Source: Anaerolineae bacterium (lineage in GTDB: Bacteria > Chloroflexota > Anaerolineae > Anaerolineales > Anaerolineaceae). From it: a stretch of 64,000 nt of DNA. The position numbers were made by a program, and so were the translations under genes. The notes under the pieces are model-generated. The model did no database searches. It saw only the letters and a program-made list of their open reading frames with translations, and was not told the DNA's origin. Position 1 is the stretch's first letter. The number at the start of each line of letters is the position of its first letter. The stretch is from positions 1-64,000 of the forward strand of contig JABUFD010000002.1 of the NCBI GenBank assembly GCA_013314735.1, read 5' to 3'. This document shows, piece after piece, positions 1,633 to 17,971 of the stretch.

Positions 1633-1766
1633 AAAAGAAATCCCTATCGATAAAAAAATCAATATCGAATAAAGCGAAATAAAGGCACAATTACAGCCTT
1701 TGTTGGAAGGCTAGTGGTTACCCCATTTCTCCTGGAAAAGACCCCTTTACGGGCTTCTTGTGGTTT

Positions 1767-1849: not shown

Positions 1850-1906
1850 TTTTTGGAGTGAAAATGAAATTGTTGTTTTTCCAGGAAAGGTCAGAGGTCA
1901 TTTAGT

Positions 1907-2602
1907 TCACTCCAGAAATAATGTCTTTCCAATTGTTTTAGGGGATGGTTGCAGGATTAAGCTTCCATTGTGAAATGCCTGTGAACCTTCTATAACGAAG
2001 AAACAGACAACTTCTCCGACCGGTAACGTATGTTCCCGCGCAATCGACCGAACTTCTTCCTTTAATAAAATAGGAATTCGAAATGTCGCTCTTATTTCCC
2101 ATTGGGGGATGGCTTCTTGGTCTTTCTTGGATTTTTTCTTTTCGGTCCCGCTAGCCTTCTTTTCCGGAACCGAGAATGCATCAGCTAACCATTTATGGTT
2201 TGTCGGTTTTTGAGCAGGCAAGATGGTGCTTCCTTTATCGCCTTCAGAGTACAGAGTCATCCGCTGCGCCTTTGGGTACGCTAAAAGTTTGATCTCTCCA
2301 TTGCGGTAAAGCCTTGCGCCATATTCAAGGTACGCCCTGAAGACTTCATCTCTAGGAACTGAAAGCGACTGAGCATCTTTGATAATCAAATCTACAACCT
2401 GCCGAGGAATTCCCCGATACGTCGCAGTTTCGAGCCGATGTTCCTGTTCCCACTTACGTGATCTTTTCTTCCTGAGATCTGCCGTGGGAATTAAATCCAA
2501 GGGCTGTCGCTGGAGTATCGTGGTTGGCTGATGTTGATCCTCCTCAACCTCGATCATCGGATTAGGATCGCGTAGTCCTGTAAATGCGTCACGCCTGGCC
2601 AT
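1907..2602 (-). CDS. Putative ParA-partner DNA-binding protein with two RHH-like modules
   Basis: The 231-residue protein lies 8 bases after parA and starts with AGAGGATGCC before the ATG. It is hydrophilic and basic. Two segments resemble each other: residues 61-110 (TYRGIPRQVV, then SVPRDEVFRAYLEYG) and 173-221 (TFRIPILLKEEV, then LPVGEVVCFFVIEG). Each has the pattern of a short strand, a helix, a turn and a second helix, as in ribbon-helix-helix proteins that bind centromere repeats beside ParA. A Lys-rich linker (about 148-163) separates them. The centromere-binding role is inferred from position and pattern; it lacks ParB signature motifs. Confidence 0.6.
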   Translation of the reverse strand: MARRDAFTGLRDPNPMIEVEEDQHQPTTILQRQPLDLIPTADLRKKRSRKWEQEHRLETATYRGIPRQVVDLIIKDAQSLSVPRDEVFRAYLEYGARLYRNGEIKLLAYPKAQRMTLYSEGDKGSTILPAQKPTNHKWLADAFSVPEKKASGTEKKKSKKDQEAIPQWEIRATFRIPILLKEEVRSIAREHTLPVGEVVCFFVIEGSQAFHNGSLILQPSPKTIGKTLFLE

Positions 2603-2610
2603 GGCATCCT

Positions 2611-3381
2611 CTAATATTTCAACACGAGAGTTGCTAAAGATTCATATTCCTCAGCTGCCCGCGTTTCTGGCGCATACTCAAAAATAGTCTTTGCCTCAGA
2701 CCAACATTCACGTAAGACAGTCGCCCGATGAATGGGGGAAAGCACTTTGTCGTTGAATGTTGCCTGCAGATCCTGCAGGGAGTCGCGTGACTCGTTGGTA
2801 CTATCGAAAAAGGTGGGTAATATTCCCAGCAATCCCCCTTGCCAATTCTTTTTGTCCCTCAAGGTTTGGATGGTCGTGACTGTCTTTGCTAACGAATTCA
2901 GTGATGCGAATTCTGTTGCAGTAGGAACAATTACCAGGTCAGCCGCCCAGATTGCACGCTCCTGTAATCCACCCACAGACGGGGATGTATCGAAAATGAT
3001 GTAGTCAAACCGGTCTTTAGTGAATGTTTTCAACAGCCCTTTTATGTAGGAGATCGGTTGATCCTGGACACCCAACATCATTTGCGCAGCGGAGGTCATT
3101 GAGTTGCCTGGAATCAACTGTAAGAAATCACGGCCTGTATCACGGACCCATTGGCGAATAAATGTTATTTCACTGGGAGAGCCTGGCTGGGTTGTCAGAA
3201 AATAATACGTTCCCATTTGGCTATCCATACCCAACTTGGTTGCGCATTGTCCTTGTGGGTCAAGGTCAATCAACAACACTTGCTTATTTTTCAGCGTGAG
3301 AGCATGTGCCAGATTTACAGCGGTGGTTGTCTTTCCTACCCCACCTTTCTGGTTCGAGATGGTGATGATTTTTGTGGCCAT
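2611..3381 (-). CDS. parA: ParA/Soj-family partition ATPase
   Basis: The 256-residue protein has a deviant Walker A motif KGGVGKTT at residues 12-19 with the signature lysine, the switch motif DLDPQGQ at 39-45 and a Walker B-like IIFDTSPS around 128-135. These define the ParA/MinD family that moves DNA by ATP-dependent gradients on the nucleoid. Length fits a small (type Ib/Soj-like) ParA without an N-terminal HTH. AAGGAG precedes the ATG. It is co-transcribed with the putative partner downstream and lies 11 bases after the unknown gene upstream. Context suggests segregation of a plasmid-like or integrated element, not the main chromosome, because no parB or gidAB is nearby. Confidence 0.9.
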   Translation of the reverse strand: MATKIITISNQKGGVGKTTTAVNLAHALTLKNKQVLLIDLDPQGQCATKLGMDSQMGTYYFLTTQPGSPSEITFIRQWVRDTGRDFLQLIPGNSMTSAAQMMLGVQDQPISYIKGLLKTFTKDRFDYIIFDTSPSVGGLQERAIWAADLVIVPTATEFASLNSLAKTVTTIQTLRDKKNWQGGLLGILPTFFDSTNESRDSLQDLQATFNDKVLSPIHRATVLRECWSEAKTIFEYAPETRAAEEYESLATLVLKY

Positions 3382-3392
3382 TTGATTTCTCC

Positions 3393-3983
3393 TTAATCGA
3401 TAAATTGCAACTGCGTTCGGCCCTCATGACCATGAACAGAAATGACATCTTCGAGAGTCTGATAAACTCCCATGGCATAAGGTTCTCTGAGCCAGTGAAT
3501 GACTGCCAAGCCACTGCTAAATACAGTACCTTCTGCTACCTCACCAGTCCCTGAAACACCGGTGAGGTCTTCCGCTCGAATCAACACAAATCGACGCATC
3601 TGACGGTTTGATGAAATAGGTTTTTGTTTTCGAGCCATGCCTTCAGCTTTCGTTTGGGTTTTGCAGTTTGTTCGCCGGCTCCGGTTACGGATTCTTGGCT
3701 TCTTCTGAATCACTTTGGAATTTGTCAGATCCAACAACAAGCCATCTTTATAAGTAAGGCGGCATCCTGAGCTGATGTGTTCAAATACGATTCCTTCCGG
3801 CCAGGTTGATTTCTCGTCCCGGTTGAGGCGGATATCGATCATTCGAAATAATCTCCCAAAGAACATTCCTGGATCATCATCTACCCTGGTTGGATCCATA
3901 ATGACTTTCCACACGTAACCTCGAAGTTCAACGGGGTTCTTTCTATCTTGAGTAATATAAAAATCTAAGTCTTTATCTGGCAT
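3393..3983 (-). CDS. Conserved protein of unknown function in the partition operon
   Basis: I take the ATG at 3983 (196 residues) over a TTG 51 bases further upstream because the TTG has no ribosome site. The middle is rich in Arg and Lys (RIRNRSRR). The last ~65 residues (RRFVLIRAEDLTGVSGTGEV, then a GRTQLQFID end) resemble a small uncharacterised domain found alone in many bacteria, in which DxxGVSGTG is followed by FSxG and a HGH/GxT end. I know no function for it. Being first in the operon with parA and the initiator, it may serve replication or maintenance of the element. Confidence 0.6.
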   Translation of the reverse strand: MPDKDLDFYITQDRKNPVELRGYVWKVIMDPTRVDDDPGMFFGRLFRMIDIRLNRDEKSTWPEGIVFEHISSGCRLTYKDGLLLDLTNSKVIQKKPRIRNRSRRTNCKTQTKAEGMARKQKPISSNRQMRRFVLIRAEDLTGVSGTGEVAEGTVFSSGLAVIHWLREPYAMGVYQTLEDVISVHGHEGRTQLQFID

Positions 3984-4498
3984 CTTGATTGGTTCTCCGA
4001 ACCTAATAAAATAAGCCGGCAAACAGGTGCGCAAATAGATTGGCAGGGGAAAAGGATTAGCCCTGACCTTATGCAGGCTTAATGAAATTGTGGAACACCC
4101 ATGACTGAGAAATCAAAAATTAATAGAACTAAGGCATTTTTTAAAAATCCCAAATTTCATTGGATAATGAGAGGATAACCGGATAATTTATTTCAAACAA
4201 CCTATTAAAATCGTTAGGGTGACTATCGAATTTAATAGCAGAATTGGCATATGGAGACTCAAAAATAGAAATGTTTAACAGGATATTCTAATAAAAACAG
4301 GCGATAAGCAATTGAACTCCAGGTGTCAGTTTGTTAGGATTTTTGTACTCAATTTGTTATTATTAACATGCAAGAAATTTTTATGACTTGAGAATTGATT
4401 TACCAAAAAAAGATAAAGCTTTTTCTGGCATATTTATCTATTGAATTTGTAATAGCGAATTACTACAATTTCAATCTGCGAAAGACTGAAGGATAAAA
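3984..4498. other. AT-rich intergenic region
   Basis: This gap of about 515 bases separates the leftward partition operon from the rightward gene at 4499, so it should hold both promoters. It is strongly AT-rich with many A and T runs. I see no credible ORF, no RNA gene and no clear terminator or long inverted repeat. I cannot assign -35/-10 boxes with confidence. Confidence 0.4.
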
Positions 4499-5482
4499 AT
4501 GGAAATAAACAAATTATCATCATGGTTATTGAGTTCTTCTCCATATACGGAATACAATACACGCCTTGAATTGCTTAACCAGTCTCCAGATGATTCAAAT
4601 GTACTTGCGGCACGCCGTAAGATGATCGCACACCCTCAAATTCAGACTCTACTAAATGAGGTGGTACATTGGCCGGGCAATATCCTGAAAAACCATAAAG
4701 ATGCCAGCCATTGTCTGCACAAATTGGTCTTTCTAGCTGATATAGGCTTGCGCTTAGGAGACCCTGAGATCGGTTTTATTGTGGAAAGAATTCTGAGCCA
4801 TCAATCACAAGAAGGGCAATTTCAGGTATTGGTGAATATCAATCCTACTTATGGGGGGACGGGTGAGGATCAATGGTCATGGATGATATGCGATGCCCCG
4901 CTTGTGCTTTACACTCTATTAAAATTTGGCATGAGTTGCGATGATGAACGAATTCGTAATGCCAAAGATTATCTATTGAGTTTGGTCCGGGAGAATGGCT
5001 GGCCGTGCTCAGTGGCCCCGGATTTGGGAAATTTTAGGGGTCCAGGTCGTAAAGCGGACCCCTGCCCCTTAGCCACGTTGGAAATGTTGAAGGTTTTGGC
5101 TTTGGTCCCGAATGTTGAGCCAAACATTGTCCGAACAGGCATTGATATGATTTTAGGAATGTGGGAGAAGAGAAGGGAACAAAAACATTACCTTTTTGCG
5201 ATGGGAACGGATTTTAAGAAACTCAAGGCTCCCTTAATTTGGTTCGATATTTTACACACCTTAGATGTACTAACTCAGTTTCCTTGTGCGGTAGCAGACC
5301 CTCGCTTACAAGAAATGCTAGTTATTGTAAGCAAAAAATCAGATACATATGGTCAATTTACGTCCGAATCAGTTTGGACCCCCTGGAAAGAATGGGATTT
5401 TGGTCAAAAGAAATTGCCATCACCGTGGTTGACTTTCTTGGTGCTACGAGTAATGAGACGAGCGAATTATTCACAGAATTAA
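4499..5482 (+). CDS. Prenyltransferase/squalene-cyclase-fold protein
   Basis: This 327-residue soluble protein starts with GAAGGATAAAA before the ATG. The pattern GQFQVLVNINPTYGGTGEDQ, then WMICDAPLVLYTLLKFG, then RIRNAKDYLLSLVRENGWPC is the repeated helix-pair layout of the alpha/alpha-toroid fold shared by squalene cyclases and protein prenyltransferases. The DxDD motif of class II terpene cyclases is not visible and the protein is only half the length of a squalene-hopene cyclase, so cyclase activity is doubtful. It stands alone between two AT-rich gaps. Function is unknown beyond the fold. Confidence 0.6.
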   Translation: MEINKLSSWLLSSSPYTEYNTRLELLNQSPDDSNVLAARRKMIAHPQIQTLLNEVVHWPGNILKNHKDASHCLHKLVFLADIGLRLGDPEIGFIVERILSHQSQEGQFQVLVNINPTYGGTGEDQWSWMICDAPLVLYTLLKFGMSCDDERIRNAKDYLLSLVRENGWPCSVAPDLGNFRGPGRKADPCPLATLEMLKVLALVPNVEPNIVRTGIDMILGMWEKRREQKHYLFAMGTDFKKLKAPLIWFDILHTLDVLTQFPCAVADPRLQEMLVIVSKKSDTYGQFTSESVWTPWKEWDFGQKKLPSPWLTFLVLRVMRRANYSQN

Positions 5483-5780
5483 TGTGTTAAGTATCTTCAA
5501 TATAATAAATCAACAACTGAGTGGATATACAATTTTTCCAACAAGAGTCCCTACTATAACAATTGCTAAGTGTTAAAACGGGGAGAGGGGTTGGCGATTC
5601 GTTATTCTATAATTTCATTAGCCCTGGGGCGAGGAAATTGTACTCGTGATTGTAAGATTTCTGGCTTTGCCATTTTATGCGAAAACCATTTATGCATTAA
5701 AACTGAGGAAGCCTCCAACTAGATTTACCAACCGTCGCGGACGGATATTGGCAAATTCCAATTCATGGTAAATTACCATA
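5483..5780. other. Intergenic region between convergent genes
   Basis: This stretch of 298 bases lies between a rightward and a leftward gene. It holds a near-palindrome ATGGTAAATTACCAT at about 5764-5778, too short for a convincing terminator, and a 44-codon open frame starting at TTG 5591 that has four Cys codons but no usable ribosome site. Nothing else is recognisable. Confidence 0.35.
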
Positions 5781-6389
5781 TCATGCTTTTCCTTGATGGG
5801 ATTTAAGCTCTTCCTCATTTTGCAGCAAATTTGCATTGACTAATGGAAGGATCAGTTCCATGAATGTAGATAGCGGCATTCTTTCCTTTGCGTGATTCCA
5901 GTGTTGCGCGAGTCCATAGATCGACCAACTCGCAGCTGTTGCTGCGATCTCAGCAGGAATATTTGATTCGGTTTGATTAAGCCAGGCCATGAACAGATCT
6001 TTTATTTGTTCCTTTACCTGAGCTTCCATAAGCGGTTCAAACTGACCACGCGGCGATTTACATTGACCGCTTGCTTCACGAATGAATTCGCATACCACTT
6101 GAATTAAGGCGCGCAAATTGTCTTCGCTATAGTGGCAGGCATTCAGTGTGCGTTTTTCGATTTCCGCCCTGAATTCCTGGCGGATTTTGAATTCGAATAG
6201 GGCATATTTATCCGAAAAATGAGCATAAAACGTGGCCCGATTAATTCCAGCTCGTTCGGTAATGTCCTGGACTGAAATGGATTGGAAATCCTTTTCATGA
6301 AGAAGATCCGAGAAAGCACCTTCCAAAAGTAGTCGAGTGCGTTTGATTCTGGGATCGATTTTATCCTCAATTACTAGACTTGACGACAT
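5781..6389 (-). CDS. TetR/AcrR-family transcriptional regulator
   Basis: The 202-residue protein has a classic TetR N-terminus: residues 17-30 (RTRLLLEGAFSDLL) then SISVQDITERAGINRATFYAHFSDKYALFE, with the helix-turn-helix at about 38-57. The C-terminal ~130 residues form the ligand-binding and dimer domain, which is not conserved enough to name a ligand. GGAG lies 5 bases before the ATG. It is divergent from the operon at 6525 and shares the promoter region containing a perfect palindrome, so it very probably represses that operon and possibly itself. The operon content suggests the inducer is a reactive electrophile or quinone. Confidence 0.9.
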   Translation of the reverse strand: MSSSLVIEDKIDPRIKRTRLLLEGAFSDLLHEKDFQSISVQDITERAGINRATFYAHFSDKYALFEFKIRQEFRAEIEKRTLNACHYSEDNLRALIQVVCEFIREASGQCKSPRGQFEPLMEAQVKEQIKDLFMAWLNQTESNIPAEIAATAASWSIYGLAQHWNHAKERMPLSTFMELILPLVNANLLQNEEELKSHQGKA

Positions 6390-6434
6390 ATTAACTCCTT
6401 CGTCGTTTATCCAACAAATTTCGTATTTTGGTGA

Positions 6435-6463
6435 TTGACAAAAATTAACAATACTTGTTTAAT
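6435..6463 (+). promoter_or_regulatory. Promoter of the TetR-controlled operon
   Basis: A perfect -35 box TTGACA at 6435-6440 is followed after exactly 17 bases by TTTAAT at 6458-6463 (5 of 6 matches to the -10 consensus). The expected start site falls inside the palindrome just downstream. Confidence 0.75.
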
Positions 6464-6465
6464 AA

Positions 6466-6479
6466 ACAACATATGTTGT
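6466..6479. promoter_or_regulatory. Palindromic operator for the divergent TetR regulator
   Basis: ACAACATATGTTGT is a perfect 14-bp palindrome placed three bases after the -10 box, where a bound repressor would block transcription. Length and position fit a TetR-family dimer site. Confidence 0.75.
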
Positions 6480-6524
6480 ATTAACAACTAATGTAGTTTA
6501 CTATAAACTTAACGGAGTGTCAAT

Positions 6525-6722
6525 ATGGAAGATATTTTACACATCACTTTAGAATTACTGGCCGCCACGTTCAGCTTTGTTGTAGCCCTGTTTCTTATGA
6601 AAGCGACCAATCGGTCACAACGATGGGAAGATGTTCGCCTCGTGTCCGTGCCAGCCTACTCCCAGCTTCAAAAATTTACTGTAACAGACTTAAGGGGCTT
6701 ATCGGATGATATCTCAAATTGA
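6525..6722 (+). CDS. Small single-pass membrane protein
   Basis: The 65-residue protein is the first gene of the TetR-controlled operon, with CGGAGTG 8-9 bases before the ATG. Residues about 6-26 (HITLELLAATFSFVVALFLM) form one transmembrane helix, followed by a basic, polar tail. It overlaps the next gene by 17 bases, which suggests translational coupling. I do not recognise the family. It may be the remnant of a longer protein or a small partner of the LUD protein. Confidence 0.6.
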   Translation: MEDILHITLELLAATFSFVVALFLMKATNRSQRWEDVRLVSVPAYSQLQKFTVTDLRGLSDDISN

Positions 6723-7353
6723 AAACAACACCGTCGCCCCAAATGAACAGTATTCGCGGTTGGCTAGTGACACCCAAATCATGCGCACCGCTCAATCCCT
6801 AGAGGCTCACGGCATCCATGCTATCATCGCTGCGAATGGCGAGGAAACTCGAACGAAACTGCTGGAACTATTACCGGAGGGGGCGGAAGTTTTTCTTGGT
6901 AGTTCCGACACAGTGAAAGAACTCGGATTGAAAGAAATAGTTGACAACTCGGAGCGCTTCAATTCAGTCCGCGTTCGACTGGCCAAAATGGACAGCAGCA
7001 CTCAGAACCGTGAGATGATCAAAATGGGTGCAGTGCCAGAATACATCATCGGAAGCGTTCAAGCTGTGACCGAAGACGGGAGCGTAGTTATCGCTTCCAA
7101 CACAGGCAGCCAACTGGCACCTTATGCTGCATCTGCAGCTCATGTCATCTGGGTGGTCGGTTCGCAAAAGATTGTTCGAACACTTGAGGAGGGTTTTGAA
7201 CGTGTGTACCAGTATGCACTCCCGCTGGAAGATGCCCGACTGATGAAAGAATATGGGATGCGCAGTAGCGTTAACAAAATGCTAATTATCCACAAGGAAG
7301 TCATCCCCGGGCGGACCACCATTATCCTGGTGAAGGAGAAACTGGGTTTCTGA
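6706..7353 (+). CDS. LUD-domain protein (LutC/YkgG-like, DUF162)
   Basis: The 215-residue protein has the features of the LUD family: a segment with GAEVFLGSSDTVKELGL, then VIASNTGSQLAPYA, then VIWVVGSQKIVRTLEEGFER and YALPLEDARL. Members include LutC, a subunit of the lactate utilisation complex LutABC. Here LutA and LutB (FeS proteins) are absent, so this is a stand-alone form of unknown reaction. Stand-alone LUD genes often sit in stress or redox operons. It is the second gene of the TetR-controlled operon. Confidence 0.8.
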   Translation: MISQIENNTVAPNEQYSRLASDTQIMRTAQSLEAHGIHAIIAANGEETRTKLLELLPEGAEVFLGSSDTVKELGLKEIVDNSERFNSVRVRLAKMDSSTQNREMIKMGAVPEYIIGSVQAVTEDGSVVIASNTGSQLAPYAASAAHVIWVVGSQKIVRTLEEGFERVYQYALPLEDARLMKEYGMRSSVNKMLIIHKEVIPGRTTIILVKEKLGF

Positions 7354-7361
7354 TATGAAAT

Positions 7362-7562
7362 ATGCAGCCATCCATCACCAGGATGAAACGGGGGCTCAAA
7401 CACTTTCAAGCTCCCGTGACGGCCGCAATTGCCCCTGTATGCGAATTTGCCCTGAATGACTGCTATGCCATAGTCGGTACCCAACCTTATGAGGTGTTTG
7501 AAAAGGCTTTAAAACGACTGATTGAACGAAAACTGAAAGTAGGAGACAAAAATGAATTCTAA
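7362..7562 (+). pseudogene. C-terminal remnant of a DsbA-family oxidoreductase
   Basis: The 66-codon frame carries, near its end, NDCYAIVGTQPYEVFEKAL and then KRLIERK. This matches the C-terminus of DsbA/FrnE-type thioredoxin-fold proteins, where a GVPTFVxNxKYAIxGAQPYEVF segment is typical. The cis-Pro loop is altered (APVCEFAL) and there is no room upstream for the thioredoxin core with its CxxC, because the LUD gene ends 8 bases before. No ribosome site precedes the ATG. I read it as the tail left by a deletion; the alternative is a true small protein. Confidence 0.6.
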
Positions 7563-8067
7563 CAACCCAACTTCATTTCCCGAACGTAAACGATCCAGGC
7601 CGGCAACCAATCAGGGTATGCCACACGCTCAAATTGGCATCCGACCCATAGCGGCGATTAACGATGAACTGTTTCGGCGGTCTTTCTCTTTGCCTATGGT
7701 TCAGAACCGTCCCACGGTCATCTCAGTCCCGGGAGCGCGCGCGTTGTGGTTGGATGAGGGTATGCCTCTGGCTCACCCTGAAGTGATCGCGCGTGGGCGC
7801 GAGTTTGCCCACATCCATCCCGATGGCAGCCTGCATCTTTCGCTGCCACCAGAACGCGCCCGAGAAGCTGTAGAAAAAGGCTGGGCTGAGCCCCATCCGA
7901 TCGCCAGTTATATCGGCATCGATGGGATGGTCATGCTTTATACCCCATTAGATCAAGAAGAGCTGGAGGTAGTTTTTCAGTTGATCGTTGAATCATATAC
8001 CTTTGTTACCGGTAATTCTTTTCAGCCGGAAAATGCTCTCCAACAAGTTCGAAGGAGTAATCCATGA
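7552..8067 (+). CDS. DUF5519 (luciferase-domain-like) protein
   Basis: The 171-residue protein has AGGAGACAAAA before the ATG and overlaps the DsbA remnant by 11 bases. Residues about 60-145 contain ARALWLDEGMP, then EFAHIHPDGSLHLSLPPERA, WAEPHP and GMVMLYTPLDQEELEVV, the pattern of the DUF5519 family, named for similarity to a segment of plant and bacterial luciferase-annotated proteins. No reaction is known. The first 45 residues are polar and not conserved. The stop overlaps the next start (ATGA), so the two are coupled. The operon suggests a role with the ring-cleavage-type VOC protein. Confidence 0.75.
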   Translation: MNSNNPTSFPERKRSRPATNQGMPHAQIGIRPIAAINDELFRRSFSLPMVQNRPTVISVPGARALWLDEGMPLAHPEVIARGREFAHIHPDGSLHLSLPPERAREAVEKGWAEPHPIASYIGIDGMVMLYTPLDQEELEVVFQLIVESYTFVTGNSFQPENALQQVRRSNP

Positions 8068-8996
8068 TTGTTCCTCAGCCGATTACTATCGCTTCTCACC
8101 GGATCCACCCGAATACCCGGCCTGGCTATGTCCATCTCAAGGTGGCCGATATCGAACGTCAGCTCGCTTTTTATCAAAATGTGCTGGGTTTGAGGTTGAA
8201 CTGGCGGAACCAAAAAAGCGCCGGGTTGGGTGTGGAAGGCGAAGATATTGTCCGGATGACCGAGATCCCCAACGGCAGGCGATATCGCGGTGTGACAGGA
8301 ATCTATCATTTTGCCATCCTTTTCCCCAACCGCCGCGAGCTGGCCCGAGCGGTTACTCGCCTTTTCACCCTGCGCTGGCCCAATTACCCAACGGATCATG
8401 TGATGACCAAAACCACTTACCTGGATGATCCGGAAGGGAACAACATCGAGTTATATTGCGAGTCGCCAGAGGATGGGATTTCTGAAGTTGTCAATGGAGA
8501 GTTCATTGCCCGCCATTCAGACGGCACGCCCAGTGATGGGCGCGAGCCGCTTGACCTCGATGCGTTGTTCTCCAATCTTAACAAAGATGATCCCCTGGAT
8601 GTGCCTGTACCGATAGAAACACGCATGGGACATTTCCACCTCTATGTAGCAAACCTGAATGCAACCCGGCATTTCTATCATGAATTGCTCGGATTCGACG
8701 ATATGGGCATTGCGCGAACCTTCCGGATGGGCATGGTATCTGCCGGGGGGTATCATCATCACATTGGATTTAATACGTGGCAAGGGGAGGGTGCTCCGGC
8801 GCCGCTCTCTGATGGTTTGGGATTGAAATATTTCACTTTCAACTTGCCGGATGCTGAGGAACTCAACCGCATGGATGAGATGCTTCGGGAAGCGGGGGTG
8901 GAATATGAGCACCATACTGACGGCTTATTCTTACGTGATCCTTCCCAAAATTCTCTGCTCTTAACAACCGCCGAACTGGTGAAGGAGAATAAGTGA
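8064..8996 (+). CDS. Two-domain VOC protein (CatE/MhqO-like ring-cleavage dioxygenase)
   Basis: The 310-residue protein holds two vicinal-oxygen-chelate domains, at about 20-135 and 187-302. The first keeps a possible metal triad: H24 (GYVHLKV), H82 (YHFAI) and E129 (NNIELY). The second has H192 and a His cluster at 231-233 but SLLL where the Glu would be. Two-domain proteins of this type include Bacillus CatE and MhqO, involved in catechol or quinone detoxification. A partner carboxylesterase at 9580 supports that reading, as in MhqD/MhqE pairs. It overlaps the upstream gene by 4 bases. Confidence 0.8.
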   Translation: MIVPQPITIASHRIHPNTRPGYVHLKVADIERQLAFYQNVLGLRLNWRNQKSAGLGVEGEDIVRMTEIPNGRRYRGVTGIYHFAILFPNRRELARAVTRLFTLRWPNYPTDHVMTKTTYLDDPEGNNIELYCESPEDGISEVVNGEFIARHSDGTPSDGREPLDLDALFSNLNKDDPLDVPVPIETRMGHFHLYVANLNATRHFYHELLGFDDMGIARTFRMGMVSAGGYHHHIGFNTWQGEGAPAPLSDGLGLKYFTFNLPDAEELNRMDEMLREAGVEYEHHTDGLFLRDPSQNSLLLTTAELVKENK

Positions 8997-8999
8997 CCC

Positions 9000-9479
9000 A
9001 TGACGAACGGTGAATTGAAGGTTGGATCGCCAGCGCCTGATTTCAGGCTTACCTCTAGTGGTGGCGGCGAAATCGAACTCGCCGATTACCGCGGTCGATC
9101 GCGCGTGGTATTGTTCTTCGTCCGCGAGTTTAATTGAATGCAATGCCGAACACATGTCGCCCAGTTGGGGCGTATGCGGCAGGAATTTGGGAATGCAGGC
9201 GCTGAAGTGCTCATTGTCCTGGGAGACTCCCTGGAGCGTGCAGCCAAATATGCCGAGCAGCTCAAAGCGCCCTTCCCCGTTCTGGCCGATCCCGAGCGCA
9301 CGGTTTATCGTGCCTATGACCTGGACCGGGTAGCCTTCGTCATCCAGCGCACCGCCTCGGTGATTGTGGATCGAAAAGGCAGAATCCGATATATCAAACG
9401 CGCCACCAATCCAATGGAATGGCTGCGGGAGAGTCGCGAATTGTTGGCATTTGTGAAAGGTTTAGAAAGGGAAACATGA
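9000..9479 (+). CDS. Candidate selenocysteine-containing peroxiredoxin-like protein (AhpC/TSA family), in-frame UGA at 9135
   Basis: Reading from ATG 9000, the first 45 residues (KVGSPAPDFRLTSS, then RVVLFFVREFN) are a perfect start of an AhpC/TSA thioredoxin-fold protein. A TGA at 9135-9137 follows, then MQCRTHVAQLGRMRQEF and a normal C-terminus to 9479. In PRXL2-like relatives this place reads RxxGCxxCR, so the UGA replaces the first Cys of CxxC and would give UMQC, with Sec at residue 46 of 159. A hairpin lies just downstream. Alternatives are a nonsense mutation or re-initiation at ATG 9138, which would give a protein without its active site. The gene lies 3 bases after the VOC gene. SelA/B/C/D are not in the window. 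Confidence 0.7.
9153..9175 (+). promoter_or_regulatory. Putative bacterial SECIS hairpin
   Basis: CGCCC (9158-9162) pairs with GGGCG (9168-9172) around the loop AGTTG, and outer CAT/ATG pairs follow after a small internal loop. The apical loop begins 25 bases after the UGA, within the range known for bacterial SECIS elements, and it contains a GU pair of bases as SelB-binding loops do. It was found by eye; folding energy was not computed. Confidence 0.5.
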
Positions 9480-9583
9480 TCCCACAAATTCAAACCTCGA
9501 AACCTGTTATGGGTATTGCGGCTGTCTTCGAGGATCGGAGATTTACGATCCATCGATTGCTAATCACAGGTAAATCAGAATGA
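9476..9583 (+). CDS. Tiny coupled ORF of unknown function
   Basis: A 35-codon frame starts with ATG overlapping the stop of the peroxiredoxin-like gene (ATGA) and ends with TGA overlapping the ATG of the esterase gene (ATGA again). GAAAGGGAAAC precedes the start. The peptide (IQTSKPVMGIAAVFEDRRF and onward) is not recognisable. Exact ATGA junctions on both sides suggest that ribosomes pass through it, either as a real small protein or as a coupling leader for the esterase. It could also be a decayed gene remnant. Confidence 0.4.
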   Translation: MIPQIQTSKPVMGIAAVFEDRRFTIHRLLITGKSE

Positions 9584-10260
9584 ACAATATAGAAAGCCGC
9601 ATGAACTTATCCATTTACCATCTGATCCAGTTTCCCAAGACCTACTTTCCCGGGAATGGGCTAACCCGATACCCCGCTATCCTGGCCCTGCATGGGCATG
9701 GCGGCAGCGAACGCGACCTGATTGGGCTGGCGCCTGATTTGCCTGAAAACCTGTTATGGGTCAGCGGGCGGGGACCGGTGGTTTTTGCTCCCGGTGCTTA
9801 CGACTGGTATCCCGTCACGCAGTTCGGCCGCCCCGACCCCAATTTGCTTGAGCAAGCGTTGGGAAAAATAGATCAATTCATCGGTGAACTTTTAGAAAAT
9901 TACCCCATTGACCCTAAGAAAGTCTTTTTGATGGGCTTCAGTCAGGGCAGCATGATTTCAATGTCATTTTTGCTAACCCATCCTGATCGAATTACTGGCG
10001 TCATTGCCCAGTCTGGTTACGTGCCCATGCAGTCTAATCTAGCGATTAACCTGGCGGGGATCAAAGGTAAGCCGGTTGTGATGACCCACGGTTTCGAGGA
10101 CGCGAGCATGCCGCTGGATTGGTCGCAACAGTCCCGTGATTACCTGTTGAATCATGGCCTGGATGTGGAATATCACAACTTCCACATGGGCCACACTATC
10201 ACCGCAGAATATCTGGCGGCGGTGCGTAAATGGTTGGAAAAGCAACTTGCAAATGAATAG
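9580..10260 (+). CDS. Phospholipase/carboxylesterase-family alpha/beta hydrolase (MhqD-like)
   Basis: The 226-residue protein has LALHGHGGSERDL (oxyanion region, about 35-47), the nucleophile elbow GFSQGS with S121, and likely Asp174 (HGFEDASMP) and His205 (MGHTI). This is the short esterase type that includes Bacillus MhqD, which acts with a ring-cleavage VOC protein in quinone resistance. It is the last gene of the TetR-controlled operon. The substrate is not shown by the sequence. The following 208 bases to the next gene hold nothing I can name. Confidence 0.85.
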   Translation: MNNIESRMNLSIYHLIQFPKTYFPGNGLTRYPAILALHGHGGSERDLIGLAPDLPENLLWVSGRGPVVFAPGAYDWYPVTQFGRPDPNLLEQALGKIDQFIGELLENYPIDPKKVFLMGFSQGSMISMSFLLTHPDRITGVIAQSGYVPMQSNLAINLAGIKGKPVVMTHGFEDASMPLDWSQQSRDYLLNHGLDVEYHNFHMGHTITAEYLAAVRKWLEKQLANE

Positions 10261-10468
10261 AAAGCCGGATTAATCTATCCCTGGGCGCTGCCTTGTGCTC
10301 CGGAAAAGCGAAGCGGCGCATGATCTTGTTCCTGAGCGGCAAAAGCACCTCTTTGGAGGATTCTTTCTCCGCAGTCGCAGTGGTTCAGAATGACAGTCCA
10401 TTTGCCCTGCAGCAGCAACTTGTGTCAATTAAATTGCGCGCCTACTTGATGGCAGGCAATCGGTTATT

Positions 10469-11101
10469 TCACTTTTTTATTTTCGCCAAAATGCACTTTT
10501 CAGCGATTTCTACGGCACCATCCCAGCCGGTTGATGAGGTATTCACACACAAATCGTAATATCGTGCATCGACCCAGTTTTTTTGCGTAAATTTTTTATT
10601 GTAAGCATCCCGCTCTTGGTCATTTGTCTTAATAAGTTTTCGAGCATCCTGTTCTGTCAATTCATAGAGCGTACACAAACGCTTTACTCGATCTGAGTGA
10701 TTTGCGGTCAGGAGAATTGAAACATGATTGGGGTGATTCTTAAGAATATCCCAACCGCAGCGGCCTAAAAATATTGCTGAGCTTTTTGAGGCTATTTTTT
10801 GAATGGTTTCGCATTCTGTCTTAAATAATTCAGAATCAGATGGAGCGAGTTGGGGAAATTCAGCAATAATTATAGGGCTCAATCCAATCATCGAGCGATT
10901 AAAATTATCCCAAAAAGTGGTTAATCGCTCCTCCCTCCTTTCCACTTCACTTTCCAAAATATTCAGTTGTTGAGCTACACTTTGAATTATCTCTCGATCT
11001 AAAAACGGGATTCCTAATCTGTCGGCTAATTTTTCTCCGACATATGCCCCGCCACTACCGATTAGATGACTAATAGTAATCGCCAAATCTTCATTTTCCA
11101 T
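10469..11101 (-). CDS. Cytidylate kinase-like family protein
   Basis: The 210-residue protein begins ITISHLIGSGGAYVGEKLADRLGIPFLDREI, the P-loop region of the cytidylate-kinase-like family (PF13189 type), which has GSGG in place of GSGKST. A later FLGRCGWDIL and a LIKTNDQERDAYNKKF segment fit the lid with catalytic Arg. Such proteins are annotated as CMP-kinase-like but their substrate is unproven; the real cmk is usually elsewhere. It is the last gene of the long minus-strand run and is separated from the CDP-alcohol transferase by 186 AT-rich bases. A role in CMP recycling from lipid synthesis is a guess from context. Confidence 0.75.
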   Translation of the reverse strand: MENEDLAITISHLIGSGGAYVGEKLADRLGIPFLDREIIQSVAQQLNILESEVERREERLTTFWDNFNRSMIGLSPIIIAEFPQLAPSDSELFKTECETIQKIASKSSAIFLGRCGWDILKNHPNHVSILLTANHSDRVKRLCTLYELTEQDARKLIKTNDQERDAYNKKFTQKNWVDARYYDLCVNTSSTGWDGAVEIAEKCILAKIKK

Positions 11102-11287
11102 ATGAACCTCACATTACATAATCTGACCTCATCCTGCACACAATGAACGGATAGTAAGTCAATATTCAATACTTTCGTCAATTAACTATCATAATTTCAT
11201 ATAACATAAAACGCAAATTAATCGCCGTATTTATTTCGAGATTTGAGAGGTGATTTTAATTTTTCATTTATTGTTTATTCGCAGATA

Positions 11288-12013
11288 TTATTTCAAGTTT
11301 TTATGGTCGGTTTGATGACACGACTCGTTGATCAACCTCTCATTATCGATTTTCCTCAATGATCTGGCACTGCTAATAGAAAAAATGAGAAACATTGAAT
11401 ACAAAATAAGCGCAACAACCACAACGGCAATGTCTAAGAAAGTTAGAGGAGTTATATTCCCAATATAAAATTTAGCTTTAGGATCTTTCATGAAATAGAT
11501 CACAATATTTAGAATTATTGCCAAAGCGCGAATTTCAGTTGGCCCTAATTCACCAAAGGATATTTGAAAAACATTATTGGTATATGTGGATAGATAAGTA
11601 TAAATTGAAAGTAGCAGATATCCAATCAATGCAATCAAAGCCAATTCCATACTTAAATAGGGTGAGAACCCTAATCCCAAAAAAATCAATAAAATACTGA
11701 TGGCGTCAATTATATGGTCGATAAAGAACCCATATAAAGGTCGCTCAATCTTACGTTTGCGGGCCAGGGTTCCATCCAGGCTATCTCCAAACCAGTTCAG
11801 CAAAAACCCGAAACTCGCGAGCCAAAGAAAATTTATATTTATATTCGTTGCACAATAGGATATAAAAATTAGAAAGGATGCAAACAATCCCAGACCAGTC
11901 AAATGGTCAGGGGTGACCCAGGCAGGTAAATGTTCCGCAAGCCAATTTAGTGCGGGGCGTTCCAAAGGTCCAAGGATTGTGTTGTTAATGCGGATGTGAT
12001 TCTTCTTTTCCAT
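11288..12013 (-). CDS. CDP-alcohol phosphatidyltransferase-family membrane enzyme
   Basis: The 241-residue membrane protein carries the family signature, DGTLARKRKIERPLYGFFID followed by HIID, in the cytosolic loop after the second helix. The spacing between AR and G is nine residues against the usual eight. Several hydrophobic segments follow (ISILLIFLGLGF, ALIALIGYLLL, DIAVVVVALILYSMFLIF). The family transfers a phospho-alcohol from a CDP-linked donor, as in PgsA, Pis or Pss. The substrate cannot be told here. GGAGAAAAA precedes the ATG. It lies next to a flippase-like gene, which supports a membrane-lipid role. Confidence 0.85.
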   Translation of the reverse strand: MEKKNHIRINNTILGPLERPALNWLAEHLPAWVTPDHLTGLGLFASFLIFISYCATNININFLWLASFGFLLNWFGDSLDGTLARKRKIERPLYGFFIDHIIDAISILLIFLGLGFSPYLSMELALIALIGYLLLSIYTYLSTYTNNVFQISFGELGPTEIRALAIILNIVIYFMKDPKAKFYIGNITPLTFLDIAVVVVALILYSMFLIFSISSARSLRKIDNERLINESCHQTDHKNLK

Positions 12014-12062
12014 TTTTTCTCCGATTTAGTAAGGATCAAGAATCTTAAAGCGTAAAAGAAAT

Positions 12063-13037
12063 TTAGAAGGCAGATTCCTTTTGTTTATGTAGAAGTGCAC
12101 GAAATGCGGCCATTCCCAAAAAAAATGGAACCCAAAAAGTGATCGCTCGAAATGCAAGAGTGAGAATGGCGGCAGATTCGAGTTCAACTCCCAAAGAATT
12201 TAGCGCCAGGGTCATCATGCCTTCCATGACCCCAATCCCAGAGGGGGTAGGTGAGATAATCGTAAATAGGTAACCCAAAGTAAAGCCACTTACTACAACT
12301 CCCAGATCAAATTTGAGTCCAAATGCAAGAAAAAGTAAGGAAAGTATAGAGATCAGAATTACTTTATTCACAAACGCAAGACCGAGTGGCAGAAACAACA
12401 GCCGAATATTATTATGGATCGTTTGGGCTCCAATATGAATTTCTTCTGAGAAATGGATGATCTGTTCATCGCTTATACTGATCTTTTTGAAAAAAATACG
12501 AATAATCCGGTTAAGCATCTGAAAGATTACGCCCAGGATTGTTTTCAATAAATCAATGTGTTTACTACTTAAGAATATTATCAAAATTAATCCACTGATG
12601 ATCCCTCCCAACAGGCATGTGGCAGCTATTTCAAACCAGGTTAGCGGTTGGTGCGCCCGCAAAATAAGAAGACCAACAAGAGAAGTAATAAACAACGCAA
12701 GGTCATCAAACAAGAGATAAAGCATGCTAGCAAATGTTACCCGTGCGCTTGAAATGCCCTTTTCTTTTGCATCCGATATGAACAGCAATAGCGTAGAAAT
12801 TCCTGCTGAAGGGGTAATGATCCTCACAAAGTTTACTGCAGCAGAACTTAATGTAACCATATGCAAATAGGATTCCTTGATACCAACAAGTCCGTAGATC
12901 ACACAATATGAAAATCCCATTGTAGCCATCCACAAAAGTACAAGGATGAAAGCAATGAAAATGTATAAAGATTCCGCCTGACCTAAAATCTTTTTCATCT
13001 CCGAAACTTCAGAAATTTGAGTCAGGACAAATAACAC
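12063..13037 (-). CDS. Lysylphosphatidylglycerol-synthase-TM/YbhN-family membrane protein
   Basis: The protein has about eight transmembrane helices and the UPF0104/AglD-like pattern with a late segment PSGIGVMEGMM, typical of YbhN/MprF flippase-domain relatives. The GTG start at 13037 gives 324 residues but cuts the first helix and has no ribosome site. The frame is open further upstream; an ATA at 13076 gives an IKRFLITLILFIAVLF helix and has GAAGGG 9 bases before it. The true start is therefore probably 13076 with a rare ATA codon. Likely role: moving a lipid or glycolipid across the membrane; substrate unknown. Confidence 0.75.
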   Translation of the reverse strand: MLFVLTQISEVSEMKKILGQAESLYIFIAFILVLLWMATMGFSYCVIYGLVGIKESYLHMVTLSSAAVNFVRIITPSAGISTLLLFISDAKEKGISSARVTFASMLYLLFDDLALFITSLVGLLILRAHQPLTWFEIAATCLLGGIISGLILIIFLSSKHIDLLKTILGVIFQMLNRIIRIFFKKISISDEQIIHFSEEIHIGAQTIHNNIRLLFLPLGLAFVNKVILISILSLLFLAFGLKFDLGVVVSGFTLGYLFTIISPTPSGIGVMEGMMTLALNSLGVELESAAILTLAFRAITFWVPFFLGMAAFRALLHKQKESAF

Positions 13038-13121
13038 GGCAATAAAAAGAATTAGCGTGATAAGAAATCTCTTTATAGTATCTTTCCCTTCGTAAGGATC
13101 GTAATCTTTAAACCATTTTCA

Positions 13122-13907
13122 TTAGAAATCCGATGTAAAAATCATCAGTACACCCAGGCAAGCAAATACACCGCTGACTATTTTTTCGAGCGTTTTCTCA
13201 CTCACCTTATTCGCCAATTTGGATGTAAGCAAACCACCTATAATCGATCCGACCGCGACGATTAATCCTGATAGGAAATTTACATTCCCATGAAGAGCAT
13301 ACCCAACCGTTCCTGATGCAGCGGTTAAGGCCATAATCAGTGATGAAGTACCAATGGCCTTGTGTATGGGGTACTTAAGAACAAGGATGAGAACAAGCAG
13401 AAATGCCATCCCGCCCCCGGCCCCTACCATACCACTCATCCCGCCAAGTAGTAGCCCAATCCCAATCGAAGCCAATATTTTTTTGGGATTAAGCGGCTGT
13501 ATATTCTCAACATCTAGCCTGGCTTTAGAGGGAAGCATTGATTTTCTCCACATGGCGATGGCCATGATGAAAATCATCACGATAAACCCGACTCCCATTT
13601 GGCCGCCAGATAGAGATTGATTTGCGAGTAAGGAACCTATTTGAGCCCCTATAATGGCACCAAGAGCGAGCCATAAGCCCGATTTTATATTCACATTCCC
13701 GTTTTTATAATAGGACCAGGCGACAAATAGAGGTGTGATGACATCGACAAACAAGCTGGTCCCGATTGCTGTGTGCATGGAGAAACCCAATAAAACAGTC
13801 AAGAGCGGAACAACCACCACCACGCCGCTTGCACCGGTTAAGCCAACAACACTTCCCGTCAGCAATCCAATGCCAATCAAACCAATCAATTGTGTGATTA
13901 AGGACAT
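13122..13907 (-). CDS. Sulfite exporter TauE/SafE-family membrane protein
   Basis: The 261-residue protein has two similar halves, each beginning with a Gly-rich helix pair: GLLTGSVVGLTGASGVVVVV and, midway, GLLLGGMSGMVGAGGG. About eight helices are present. This two-fold repeat defines TauE/SafE (DUF81) permeases, which carry sulfite, sulfoacetate or other organic anions. No neighbouring sulfur gene identifies the substrate. It lies 21 bases from the adjacent DegV gene on the same strand and appears to be in the same operon. Confidence 0.85.
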   Translation of the reverse strand: MSLITQLIGLIGIGLLTGSVVGLTGASGVVVVVPLLTVLLGFSMHTAIGTSLFVDVITPLFVAWSYYKNGNVNIKSGLWLALGAIIGAQIGSLLANQSLSGGQMGVGFIVMIFIMAIAMWRKSMLPSKARLDVENIQPLNPKKILASIGIGLLLGGMSGMVGAGGGMAFLLVLILVLKYPIHKAIGTSSLIMALTAASGTVGYALHGNVNFLSGLIVAVGSIIGGLLTSKLANKVSEKTLEKIVSGVFACLGVLMIFTSDF

Positions 13908-13928
13908 ACCTAATTGACCTTTTTAATT

Positions 13929-14780
13929 TTATTCTGCTGTATAAAAAACCAATCCCAATGTACCAGGTCCTGCGTGGACGCCGATGACTGGTCCCATATC
14001 GGAGGTAATCATTTCGATACAATTGAATTGATCTCTGATTGAATGTTCAAATTGTTGCGCTTCTTCGGGAATATTTCCGTGCAGGATTGTTACATGGACG
14101 GGTTGATCGCCCACCTTTTCCTTCATCAACTCTATTAACCGGGAAAGTGAGCGATTACGCGTACGCTGTTTCTCTAAGGGCTCTATCCTTCCGTTACTAA
14201 TATACAAGATTGGCTTGATATCGAGGGCTGATCCTAAAAATGCCGTACCTCCCCCAATTCTTCCGCCTTTATGTAAGTATTCCAGCGTTTTTACCGTGAA
14301 AATTACATTTAGACGCTTTTTAATGTCGTCAACCAACTTTAAAATGCTTTGGGCATCCTGACCCTGTCCCGCCGCTCTGGCAGCAGCAAGCGATATCATT
14401 CCCAGCCCCAGGGAGACCGATTCAGAATTAACAATATGAACGGGAATTTTATTAAATTGTTCGTTGGCCATTTCAGCGGATTGAATGGTCGCACTCATAT
14501 GATGAGAAATCACGATGGTAATAATTTCATCAACCTCATCAGCGAGCTTATTATAAATATTGACGAAATCAGAGGCAGTCGGTTGGGCAGTAGTGGGTAA
14601 TTTTTTGCTGGCAGCAAGAAGTTTATAAAATTCAGTATCCTCCAAATCAATTCCGGCGCGGTAGGTTTTGTCACCAAATGTGACATAAACAGGTGCAATA
14701 TGAATTCCTAATTCCTCTCCGCGTGCTGGCGATAAAGAACATGCGCCATCTGTGACAATTGCAACTTTCTGGTTTTTCAT
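13929..14780 (-). CDS. DegV-family fatty-acid-binding protein (first paralogue)
   Basis: The 283-residue protein has the DegV layout: VAIVTDGACSLSP at the N-terminus, PVYVTFGDKTYRAGIDL, then TTAQPTASDF, GGRIGGG near 170 and the C-terminal GVHAGPGTLGLVFY. DegV/FakB proteins bind a fatty acid so that FakA can phosphorylate it for PlsX/PlsY. The lipid-binding TxxQP motif is kept. No FakA (DAK-type) kinase is in the window. The gene is 24 bases from a plsY-like gene on the same strand, fitting uptake of exogenous fatty acids. Confidence 0.9.
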   Translation of the reverse strand: MKNQKVAIVTDGACSLSPARGEELGIHIAPVYVTFGDKTYRAGIDLEDTEFYKLLAASKKLPTTAQPTASDFVNIYNKLADEVDEIITIVISHHMSATIQSAEMANEQFNKIPVHIVNSESVSLGLGMISLAAARAAGQGQDAQSILKLVDDIKKRLNVIFTVKTLEYLHKGGRIGGGTAFLGSALDIKPILYISNGRIEPLEKQRTRNRSLSRLIELMKEKVGDQPVHVTILHGNIPEEAQQFEHSIRDQFNCIEMITSDMGPVIGVHAGPGTLGLVFYTAE

Positions 14781-14804
14781 GATTTAATCCTTTCTCGAAT
14801 AGAG

Positions 14805-15449
14805 TTACTTGATCTTTCTTGACCGCCAGCTTACGCCGCGTTCGTTACCATTCTTTAATCGGGCTAAGTTCGGAAGTAAGGCCAGAACCAATAAACCCGT
14901 GCTCAAAACCCCATACACAATATATTGCCAGGAGGATAAACCCAGCAGATATTGAATAACCGATAAAAGTAAAGTACTCACTCCAATACTGAGGGTAGCG
15001 AGCGATGCATACCCGACAGCAAAAAACATGATAAGGGCAATAGCGCTGATAATTGGGAAGGCAGATGGCATGAGAGCGAACACGCCCCCAAGAGCTGTTG
15101 CTCCACCAGCTCCCCCTTTGAAAACCAATTTGCCAGTAGTGTCTTTTTCCACAAGAAAAACCGAATAATTATGCCCAACGATAGCAAAAATTGGTGCCAT
15201 AATTTCCAATCCAACCATTCCTGGCGCGATGTACCTGGCGAACCAAACACTAGCCACCCCTTTAAAACCGTCCAAAAACAGAGTGAGTAATGCAATCGGA
15301 TACCCACTTGCGCGCATTGTGTTGGTCGTTCCTGTTCTTCCACTGCCCATTTTCCGGATATCCACTCCTTTTACCAGTTTCGAGAAGATCCAGCCAAAAG
15401 GGATGGCGCCCAGGAAATATGAAAAAAACAAACTAAAGACAAATTTCAA
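14805..15449 (-). CDS. plsY: PlsY glycerol-3-phosphate acyltransferase
   Basis: The 214-residue membrane protein has the PlsY signatures: FLGAIPFGWIFSKLVKGVDI, the phosphate loop GSGRTGTTNTMRASG, then LDGFKGVASV, then GHNYSVFL with a GGAGGATALGG loop. PlsY moves an acyl group from acyl-phosphate to glycerol-3-phosphate on the inner face of the membrane, giving lysophosphatidate. The Arg in GSGRTG replaces the usual Asn of GSGN, a change I believe also occurs in other Chloroflexota. It overlaps the MBL gene upstream by 4 bases. Confidence 0.9.
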   Translation of the reverse strand: MKFVFSLFFSYFLGAIPFGWIFSKLVKGVDIRKMGSGRTGTTNTMRASGYPIALLTLFLDGFKGVASVWFARYIAPGMVGLEIMAPIFAIVGHNYSVFLVEKDTTGKLVFKGGAGGATALGGVFALMPSAFPIISAIALIMFFAVGYASLATLSIGVSTLLLSVIQYLLGLSSWQYIVYGVLSTGLLVLALLPNLARLKNGNERGVSWRSRKIK

Positions 15450-16114
15450 TTTTCCAATAACTCCTTTTTTTCAAACGTGTACCAGTTTTCTCCATACAAG
15501 ATAACTGAATCGATTCGAGGGATTAATTCATTCGGATTCGCTTCAGTCCCATCAAGATCGTAATGAATTGGGAGGATATAAGGCGATGCCATTTTCTTAG
15601 CCATCTCTATAACTACAGATTTATATTTTTCGGGTCCTATAGGTGAAGTACGCCAGGGCAGGCATAAAATATCCGGATGAATTTCTGGCGGAAATTGATG
15701 GGCGTCGCCAATATGCAATAAGTCGGCATCATCATGGATCAAGAATGAGAGTGGTGTTCCTCCAGGATCAGGGATCTTAAAACGAAAAAGTAAGCTGACG
15801 ATGAAATAGACCGGGTCTTTAACCACACTAAAGCCTGGCAAAATTTCAATGTTTTCGATACGTTCTCCAGTGGTCAACGGTTGAAGACGAGAAGAAGGCA
15901 CTCCCATTTTTAATGCAATATCGCACACGTCTCGAGAAGCCACTACAATACCAGTTGGAATCTGAGCCACCTTACCGATATGGTCCTTGTGGGCATGCGA
16001 AACACAAATATACTCAACATTCGGCAAAGGATCCCGTGTAAAATCCGGATCGATCAAGATATGATGCTTTCCAACAATTTCTACACACGAGTGTCCAAGA
16101 AAACGAATTTTCAT
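15446..16114 (-). CDS. UlaG-like metallo-beta-lactamase-fold hydrolase
   Basis: The 222-residue protein begins MKIRFLGHSCVEI and has the metal motif HAHKDH at 40-45, then a later HIGDAHQFP and PIHYD, as in the UlaG/RomA branch of metallo-beta-lactamase-fold proteins. Such proteins are often annotated as metal-dependent hydrolases acting on phosphoesters or N-acyl lipids. The substrate is unknown. Stop and start overlap with plsY (4 bases), so the two are translated together, which may hint at a lipid-linked substrate. Confidence 0.8.
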   Translation of the reverse strand: MKIRFLGHSCVEIVGKHHILIDPDFTRDPLPNVEYICVSHAHKDHIGKVAQIPTGIVVASRDVCDIALKMGVPSSRLQPLTTGERIENIEILPGFSVVKDPVYFIVSLLFRFKIPDPGGTPLSFLIHDDADLLHIGDAHQFPPEIHPDILCLPWRTSPIGPEKYKSVVIEMAKKMASPYILPIHYDLDGTEANPNELIPRIDSVILYGENWYTFEKKELLEN

Positions 16115-16135
16115 TAAATCTCCTATTTATAAAGG

Positions 16136-16801
16136 TTATTTCTTCTTTTGCTTGATCATTATTTGCAGGACTGAAACGAAAGCCAGACCCAATCCGATCA
16201 AATAGACTGGCCAGTTAAATTGGGTTGGCCTTAAATCGTTTAGTGCAGCAGTGGATGCGGGTAATATCTGAATTGCATCTGCCATGAAAGAATAAAGCAA
16301 CAACAATACGCCCAAGATGAGTGGAATCCAAATAGATTGTGGAAAATGGACGGGGTTATTATTCACATTTTCCCTAAGCACTGCCACGCCCCCCGTGATC
16401 ATCAATATCGAAATTAAAACAGGAGAGAGTACTGGACCCCACCAGGGTAGAGGAATTAAGAATAATAAGTCGGGATCCAAAAGGCTTTTAGGCCAGCCGA
16501 TGAAAACGTTTAACCAGAGGTAATAAAAAATATCCCAAACACCAAATGCGATGAGCGTATAGCTCAAACGAGATTGATTATTATGCCCTGCGATCCATCC
16601 AATTGCCAGGAGCATAATTAAGGTTGCCAGCTCTCTTCCTATTTCGATGACAGCGATTTGCTGGTCAAAAGGTGGAACCTGAAGAATCAAGTCGCCAATA
16701 CCGAATAATCGTCGTAAATATACAACGATGGCAGCTTCCAGGTACGCCATGGAGATTGAAAAAATGGAGATCCAGATTATCTTTGAAACCAGTCGCTTCA
16801 T
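16136..16801 (-). CDS. Six-helix membrane protein of unknown function
   Basis: The 221-residue protein contains about six hydrophobic segments: IIWISIFSISMAYLEAAIVV, ELATLIMLLAIGWIAG, TLIAFGVWDIFYYLWLNVFI, LSPVLISILMITGGVAVL, IPLILGVLLLLYSFMA and LIGLGLAFVSVLQIMI. The GVWDIFYYLWL segment is distinctive, but I know no characterised relative. It overlaps the thioesterase gene by 4 bases and so is translationally coupled to it. Its operon suggests a membrane or lipid role; nothing in the sequence proves this. Confidence 0.65.
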   Translation of the reverse strand: MKRLVSKIIWISIFSISMAYLEAAIVVYLRRLFGIGDLILQVPPFDQQIAVIEIGRELATLIMLLAIGWIAGHNNQSRLSYTLIAFGVWDIFYYLWLNVFIGWPKSLLDPDLLFLIPLPWWGPVLSPVLISILMITGGVAVLRENVNNNPVHFPQSIWIPLILGVLLLLYSFMADAIQILPASTAALNDLRPTQFNWPVYLIGLGLAFVSVLQIMIKQKKK

Positions 16802-17241: not shown

Positions 17242-17252
17242 TCAAGTCTCCT

Positions 17253-17942: not shown

Positions 17943-17971
17943 AAGCAACCTCTTTGACGATTTTTACTCTT

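Follow-up and report, generated by a model that had tools for sequence, protein, structure and literature searches.

The window analysed here, the 64,000-nucleotide stretch that opens a contig of 1.13 Mb, carries on its forward strand a gene at 9000–9479 that encodes a UxxC peroxiredoxin (Prx)-like protein, referred to below as U-Prx. The gene has 159 codons when it is read through a UGA at codon 46 (9135–9137, forward strand), which is the only in-frame TGA ahead of the stop and corresponds to the selenocysteine (Sec) codon of the U-Prx family, or to a stop where Sec is not decoded. Translation places this codon in the motif REFNUMQCRTH (REFN-U-MQCR), with U46 and C49 separated by Met and Gln. 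Read through the UGA, the protein matches the AhpC-TSA domain PF00578 over residues 8–132 (E 2e-28, 99.3 bits against a cut-off of 26). This bears out the first-pass annotation, which had placed the UGA exactly where the first Cys of a CxxC motif is expected, with same-frame coding sequence on both flanks. The assignment as a UxxC Prx-like selenoprotein gene is based on the domain, the translation and the orthologues, an AhpC/TSA domain combined with UxxC being the pattern that marks such proteins.

When U-Prx was aligned with the host's own PrxQ/BCP-type protein, U46 fell opposite the Thr of TPGC and C49 opposite its Cys, which we take to be the peroxidatic residue. U-Prx thus has no Thr at the first position of the Cys/Sec motif and lacks the TxxC/TxxU pattern of a peroxiredoxin. 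Its best NCBIfam match is the SelL-related redox protein NF040769 (residues 11–118), yet at 81.6 bits it scores below the curated cut-off of 120 and so is no member by that model. A structure model, built with Cys in place of U46, is confident (pLDDT 87, pTM 0.84); Foldseek matched it best with Bcp/PrxQ-type peroxiredoxins (3drn, TM 0.83) and at a lower level with ResA (TM about 0.7).

Downstream of the UGA we located a SECIS-like hairpin at 9158–9172 (forward strand), formed by CGCCC (9158–9162), the loop AGUUG (9163–9167) and GGGCG (9168–9172), that is, five base pairs. The hairpin starts 20 nt after the UGA and its loop lies 25 nt after it, the distance noted in the first-pass annotation.

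U-Prx lies within a cassette. A TetR-type regulator (PF00440) occupies 5781–6389 on the reverse strand and is followed on the forward strand by a LUD-domain protein (6706–7353, PF02589), a luciferase-domain protein (7552–8067, PF17648), a VOC protein of the glyoxalase/dioxygenase superfamily, possibly of the ring-cleavage type (8064–8996, PF00903), and, beyond U-Prx, an alpha/beta hydrolase resembling the carboxylesterase MhqD (9580–10260; PF02230, 88.3 bits; NCBIfam MhqD 50.9 bits against a cut-off of 325). The stop of the VOC gene lies 3 bases ahead of the U-Prx ATG, and extradiol dioxygenase models matched the VOC protein only far below cut-off. Among 25 related loci, a VOC gene is found nearby at 15, a luciferase-domain gene at 14 and an MhqD-like gene at 7, although several of these loci are near-copies and therefore represent fewer independent cases. 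In one relative (G035), DNA matches to all six cassette genes fall within about 23 kb, provided that its one-contig genome is circular. The family names of the partners (MhqD-like esterase, VOC, LUD, TetR) suggest a possible role in defence against quinones or other electrophiles. As in the mhq operons reported for quinone stress (PMC6798810, PMC12673573), the cassette has a dioxygenase-superfamily gene near an MhqD-like esterase gene, a likeness in which the models matched the cassette proteins only far below cut-off. It is unlike those operons in that its regulator is of the TetR rather than the MarR type and that a selenoprotein gene lies between the two.

Conservation of the UGA codon and the hairpin

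Twenty-two homologous loci were found in GTDB genomes, of which 21 have TGA at the Sec codon and one (L145) has TGC. For alignment, these loci were combined with our own sequence, that of G025 and two copies from G035; identical proteins were collapsed and the fragment L148 was dropped, leaving 18 distinct sequences. Codon 46 is TGA in 16 of them, our own included, and encodes Cys in two (TGC and TGT). The first-pass annotation had proposed aligning homologues for U/C exchange, and such exchange is indeed seen, precisely at the UGA column. G035 has one copy with TGA and a paralogue with TGT, and more distant UxxC relatives within the order mostly have TGA at the same position. The nearest homologue is 71% identical to our protein. 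Among the matches listed for 24 other genomes of the family we found no close homologue (best 3.7e-22, versus 1.8e-65 in another family); no relative was confirmed in viral contigs, and those on plasmids were all less than 60% identical. Two loci look damaged: in L143 (1060–1503) a further in-frame stop, TAA, precedes the Sec codon, and L148 (1015–1116) is truncated and contains stops. The family may be decaying in these two genomes.

The hairpin is conserved along with the UGA. Its loop sequence AGTT is present in all 16 UGA forms and its five pairs in 14, with four pairs in L138 and L146; in L144 the middle pair is altered on both sides from C-G to G-C, and in L019 it is G-U. The two Cys forms have the loops AACTC and ACCTC and keep three of the five pairs (L079) or all five (L145). 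At the hairpin codons 53–57, the third base is the same as ours in a mean of 95% of UGA forms versus 53% at 112 other codons, and the maximum among 100 other five-codon windows is 71%. When the downstream RNA was folded, as had been suggested, fold energy by itself was not significant (z −1.69 for our sequence, with 12 of 200 shuffles equally good); in relatives z ranges from about +0.25 (L127 and L147) to −2.25 (L144). The post-UGA hairpin is a conserved, SECIS-like element, a putative SECIS.

The reading frame has also been maintained. The dN/dS of our sequence is 0.127 to L127 and 0.116 to L129, with 0.09–0.27 for eight other pairs, and pN/pS before and after the UGA is about equal in both comparisons. 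Our sequence differs at 2 of the 39 columns that are invariant across the other 17. It groups with L127 and L129 (support 88/92) on a longer branch (0.31 versus 0.13–0.16), and in relative-rate tests it has more changes in eight of eight comparisons, significantly so in one. Elsewhere in the tree, the two Cys forms and four U forms make up one well-supported group. Judged by these substitution patterns, purifying selection acts on both flanks of the UGA, and the dN/dS, pN/pS, invariant-column and rate results together indicate that selection has maintained a full-length product along most of our branch. We are almost certain that U-Prx represents a genuine selenoprotein family.

Selenocysteine machinery in the host and its relatives

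The first-pass annotation had named a genome with no Sec machinery as the finding that would speak against it, and the assembly of this host fits that description: selA, selB, selC and selD were all searched for and none was detected in the host assembly (4.09 Mb in 13 contigs, 95.5% complete). SelA has no match in the assembly, as compared with strong matches (over 160 bits) in 31 of 40 relatives and weak ones in two. SelB scores below cut-off in the host and above it in 30 of 41 genomes; the best host match, at 198 bits, was identified as EF-Tu. The best SelD matches were likewise under cut-off and proved to be HypE and a HypE/ThiL-like protein. For tRNA-Sec, the best Rfam match (45.1 bits) is a tRNA-Ser, and a custom model made from 12 tRNA-Sec genes of relatives, on which true genes score 88–112 bits, gave at best 40.7 bits, at tRNA-Ser genes. 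Both tRNA-Sec searches scored the best part of the first-look candidates only. Of the 33 relatives in which SelA is strong or SelB exceeds its cut-off, just 26 gave a tRNA-Sec of at least 53 bits, and the custom model was positive in 5 of 10 Sec-user genomes, a set partly chosen for lacking one. As assembled, this host should treat UGA46 as a stop; at 95.5% completeness, the sel genes may nevertheless sit in an assembly gap.

Sec machinery and UGA-containing redoxins generally go together. SelA is present in all 22 genomes of the homologous GTDB loci, and among the matches listed at least one TGA-bearing redoxin occurs in 29 of 33 relatives with SelA or SelB versus one of seven without. That one is G026 (93% complete, 640 contigs); the host is the other exception, with one TGA-bearing redoxin among its two matches listed. 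The redoxin of G026 (L042), which has its TGA elsewhere, in a TDTU-type motif, in a genome lacking strong SelA and over-cut-off SelB, is perhaps a second stranded gene or reflects a gap in the 640-contig assembly. Absence of individual components is seen elsewhere too. G017, a genome of the same family in one contig (99% complete), has neither SelA nor SelB; no SelA, SelB or tRNA-Sec was found in the genus mate G001, which is 69% complete; and SelA is missing from the assemblies of two other Sec users, G002 and G030. In G038, SelA (L083) is split by a frameshift near 5651–5657, which may be a sequencing error or a recent loss. An apparent SelA pseudogene in G025 was rejected, since its two halves join at unknown bases, and was not counted as a loss.

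The usual position of selA could be inspected directly. In seven of nine SelA regions fetched, selA is directly followed by a gene for an M24 peptidase and further on by tsaD; in G035 one gene intervenes at this selA/M24/tsaD locus (families were assigned by Pfam in G008 and by similarity in the other genomes). The host has, on a 1.34-Mb contig, a small ORF, M24, TsaD and OsmC-like genes in that order. The small ORF is 36% identical to the ORF ahead of selA in G008 and overlaps M24 by 11 bp in contiguous sequence with no N, and tblastn found no trace of selA at this locus. This rules out a mere assembly gap at the locus; selA could still have moved into an unassembled part of the genome.

The first 24 kb and the origin of the gene

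The contig begins inside a replication/partition-like module (1–4126, reverse strand; a DnaA_N-type protein and ParA) that extends off its start and is 90–92% identical to DNA of G005, G008 and G021, which represent three other genera of the family. In those genomes some 100 bases separate the module from a 200-nt block that comes after it (L190:9519-9719; L189:9843-10044; L191:10520-10705) and is 93–96% identical to 24084–24283 (forward strand) of the window. In the host, module and block are 20 kb apart with the cassette in between, and such separation of two blocks that adjoin each other elsewhere is one mark expected of an integrated mobile element. A phage-type integrase follows the module, beside the block, in G021 only; the left end in the host lies off the contig. 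The module has no close plasmid relative (four records, with short ParA matches).

Composition, measured as the correlation of 2.5-kb windows with the genome's GC-normalised tetranucleotide profile, shifts at the same block: all ten windows in 1–25,000 lie at 0.61–0.79 and all 15 beyond at 0.81–0.91. In 22 pieces from elsewhere in the genome the values are 0.66–0.92, two of them below 0.79. The cassette window, at 0.78, is less atypical than its surroundings. The stretch at 13.9–21.4 kb is also found near the module in G008, on the opposite side of the block, so that a single simple insertion does not explain all of the arrangement. A composition comparison with G008 and G035 pointed to neither as the donor.

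The block itself has promoter-like and terminator-like flanks and a stretch resembling the 3′ half of a tRNA. Rfam had no match for it, and ARAGORN with default settings called no tRNA; low-grade calls from a looser run were not trusted. Viral contigs contained no exact match to 32 of its bases. The block may serve as an attachment site or encode a small RNA of the module that has yet to be described. Between cassette and block, a reverse-strand cluster at 10469–23222 contains genes for a cytidylate-kinase-like protein, a CDP-alcohol transferase, an LPG-synthase TM protein, TauE, two DegV proteins, two G3P acyltransferases, HlyD, ABC-2 and an ABC ATPase; G008 has part of this cluster, which may be a locus for membrane lipids.

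How a UGA-containing gene came to lie in such a genome can be explained in several ways. That a Cys protein acquired the codon by a chance nonsense mutation, or shows it through a sequencing error, has next to no probability: TGA is one base from TGC and TGT and the host shows no Sec machinery, but TGA at the same codon, with the hairpin, in 15 other distinct sequences rules out a chance nonsense codon, in line with the earlier argument that a random mutation was unlikely. We think it fairly likely that a working selenoprotein gene was imported on an island and became stranded in a host unable to decode Sec. In a Sec-using cell, Sec-tRNA would be brought to UGA46 by SelB bound to the hairpin downstream, and the U46-x-x-C49 pair is predicted to work as a selenol/thiol oxidoreductase. 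The recipient lineage would have lost Sec decoding before the gene arrived, recently and as part of an island measuring at least 20 kb; in such a recipient UGA would end translation, leaving the gene silent or yielding fragments. The conserved UGA and hairpin, the U/C exchange and the presence of SelA in every homologue genome argue for a stranded import, as do the lack of detectable sel genes, the absence of selA from its usual locus, the atypical first 24 kb and the separation of the two blocks. Against it, a contig join at the shared 200-nt block would look alike, sel genes may be in a gap and tRNA-Sec was missed in 7 of 33 relatives, and the placement of 13.9–21.4 kb in G008 speaks against one simple insertion. 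The near-typical cassette, the lack of a visible donor with a nearest homologue at 71%, and our longer branch, though its rate is significant in one test of eight, also count against it.

Such a false join is unlikely, though one of the main rivals: the first 24 kb or so would come from another, Sec-using member of the order, misjoined at the block, whose 93–96% identity between genera could cause the error, and that organism would simply have a normal, functional selenoprotein gene. The composition break at the block, the start of the contig inside a module common to several genera and the lack of a DNA match to 1–20000 in G001 (though that genome is only 69% complete) fit this account. An island ending at the block accounts for the break equally well, however, the assembly consists of few, long contigs, and this contig, taken as a whole, is one of the genus, a GTPase near 531 kb being closest to G001 (75% versus 64% for the next). 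It is somewhat less probable still that the sel genes are present in the organism and unassembled, with U-Prx a working selenoprotein here. The incomplete assembly, the single sel genes missing in other Sec users and the undecayed U-Prx gene would agree with this, but all four genes are missing together, even though selA, selB and selC lie apart in G035 (at 2.28, 2.95 and 1.38 Mb), selA is gone from its place in contiguous sequence, and the other redoxin match listed in the host has no TGA. A vertical relic, in which the lineage owned U-Prx and lost its sel genes so recently that decay has not begun, seems to us very doubtful. The intact gene and the loss of selA where relatives retain it are compatible with this history, and G017 illustrates that loss occurs in the family; against it stand the foreign composition, the lack of a close homologue among the matches listed for 24 family genomes and the incomplete genus mate, whose similar lack of Sec machinery argues for an older loss. 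Going beyond the stranded import, the cassette might be a Sec-dependent electrophile-defence unit that is mobile as cargo, also into hosts unable to decode Sec, and persists there with UGA and hairpin intact, awaiting sel genes or yielding two separate pieces if translation restarts at the ATG directly after the UGA (TGA-ATG); we regard this as an improbable speculation.

Relation to known selenoproteins and significance

Prx-like thiol:disulfide oxidoreductase selenoproteins with PF00578 and UxxC are known (PMC1088965, PMC1794560, PMC13188914), and excerpts of these reports show that the UxxC Prx-like kind has been described since 2005 (PMC1088965). The earlier claim of a probable new selenoprotein holds as to the family, while "new" was overstated. 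To the extent that these excerpts describe them, U-Prx is like the known proteins in its AhpC/TSA fold, in its predicted redox role and in having, where a Prx has TxxC/TxxU, a UxxC like that of thioredoxins. It is unlike them in its subfamily motif REF/Y-x-U-x-Q-C-R-x-H, its cassette with VOC, LUD and MhqD-like genes, and the location of this copy in a genome with no detected sel genes. Orphan SelD and incomplete selenium traits have been reported in bacteria (excerpts of PMC5029168, PMC1794560), and the present case is similar in that part of a selenium system exists without the remainder; orphan SelD, however, is a machinery gene without selenoproteins, whereas the host here has a selenoprotein gene without machinery. 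In a small sample of the literature, we met no report of this subfamily, nor of a bacterium that lacks sel genes and yet has an intact UGA gene. The kind of protein is known, and its stranded state is the unusual part.

Taken together, these data add a UGA-conserved subfamily tied to quinone/electrophile-type genes in Chloroflexota, and they caution against concluding from an annotated Sec codon alone that the host produces selenoproteins. The locus may capture the moment at which a selenoprotein gene sits stranded in a genome from which selA has been cleanly removed. If this is true, it would be relevant to the loss of Sec use and to the spread of selenoprotein genes.
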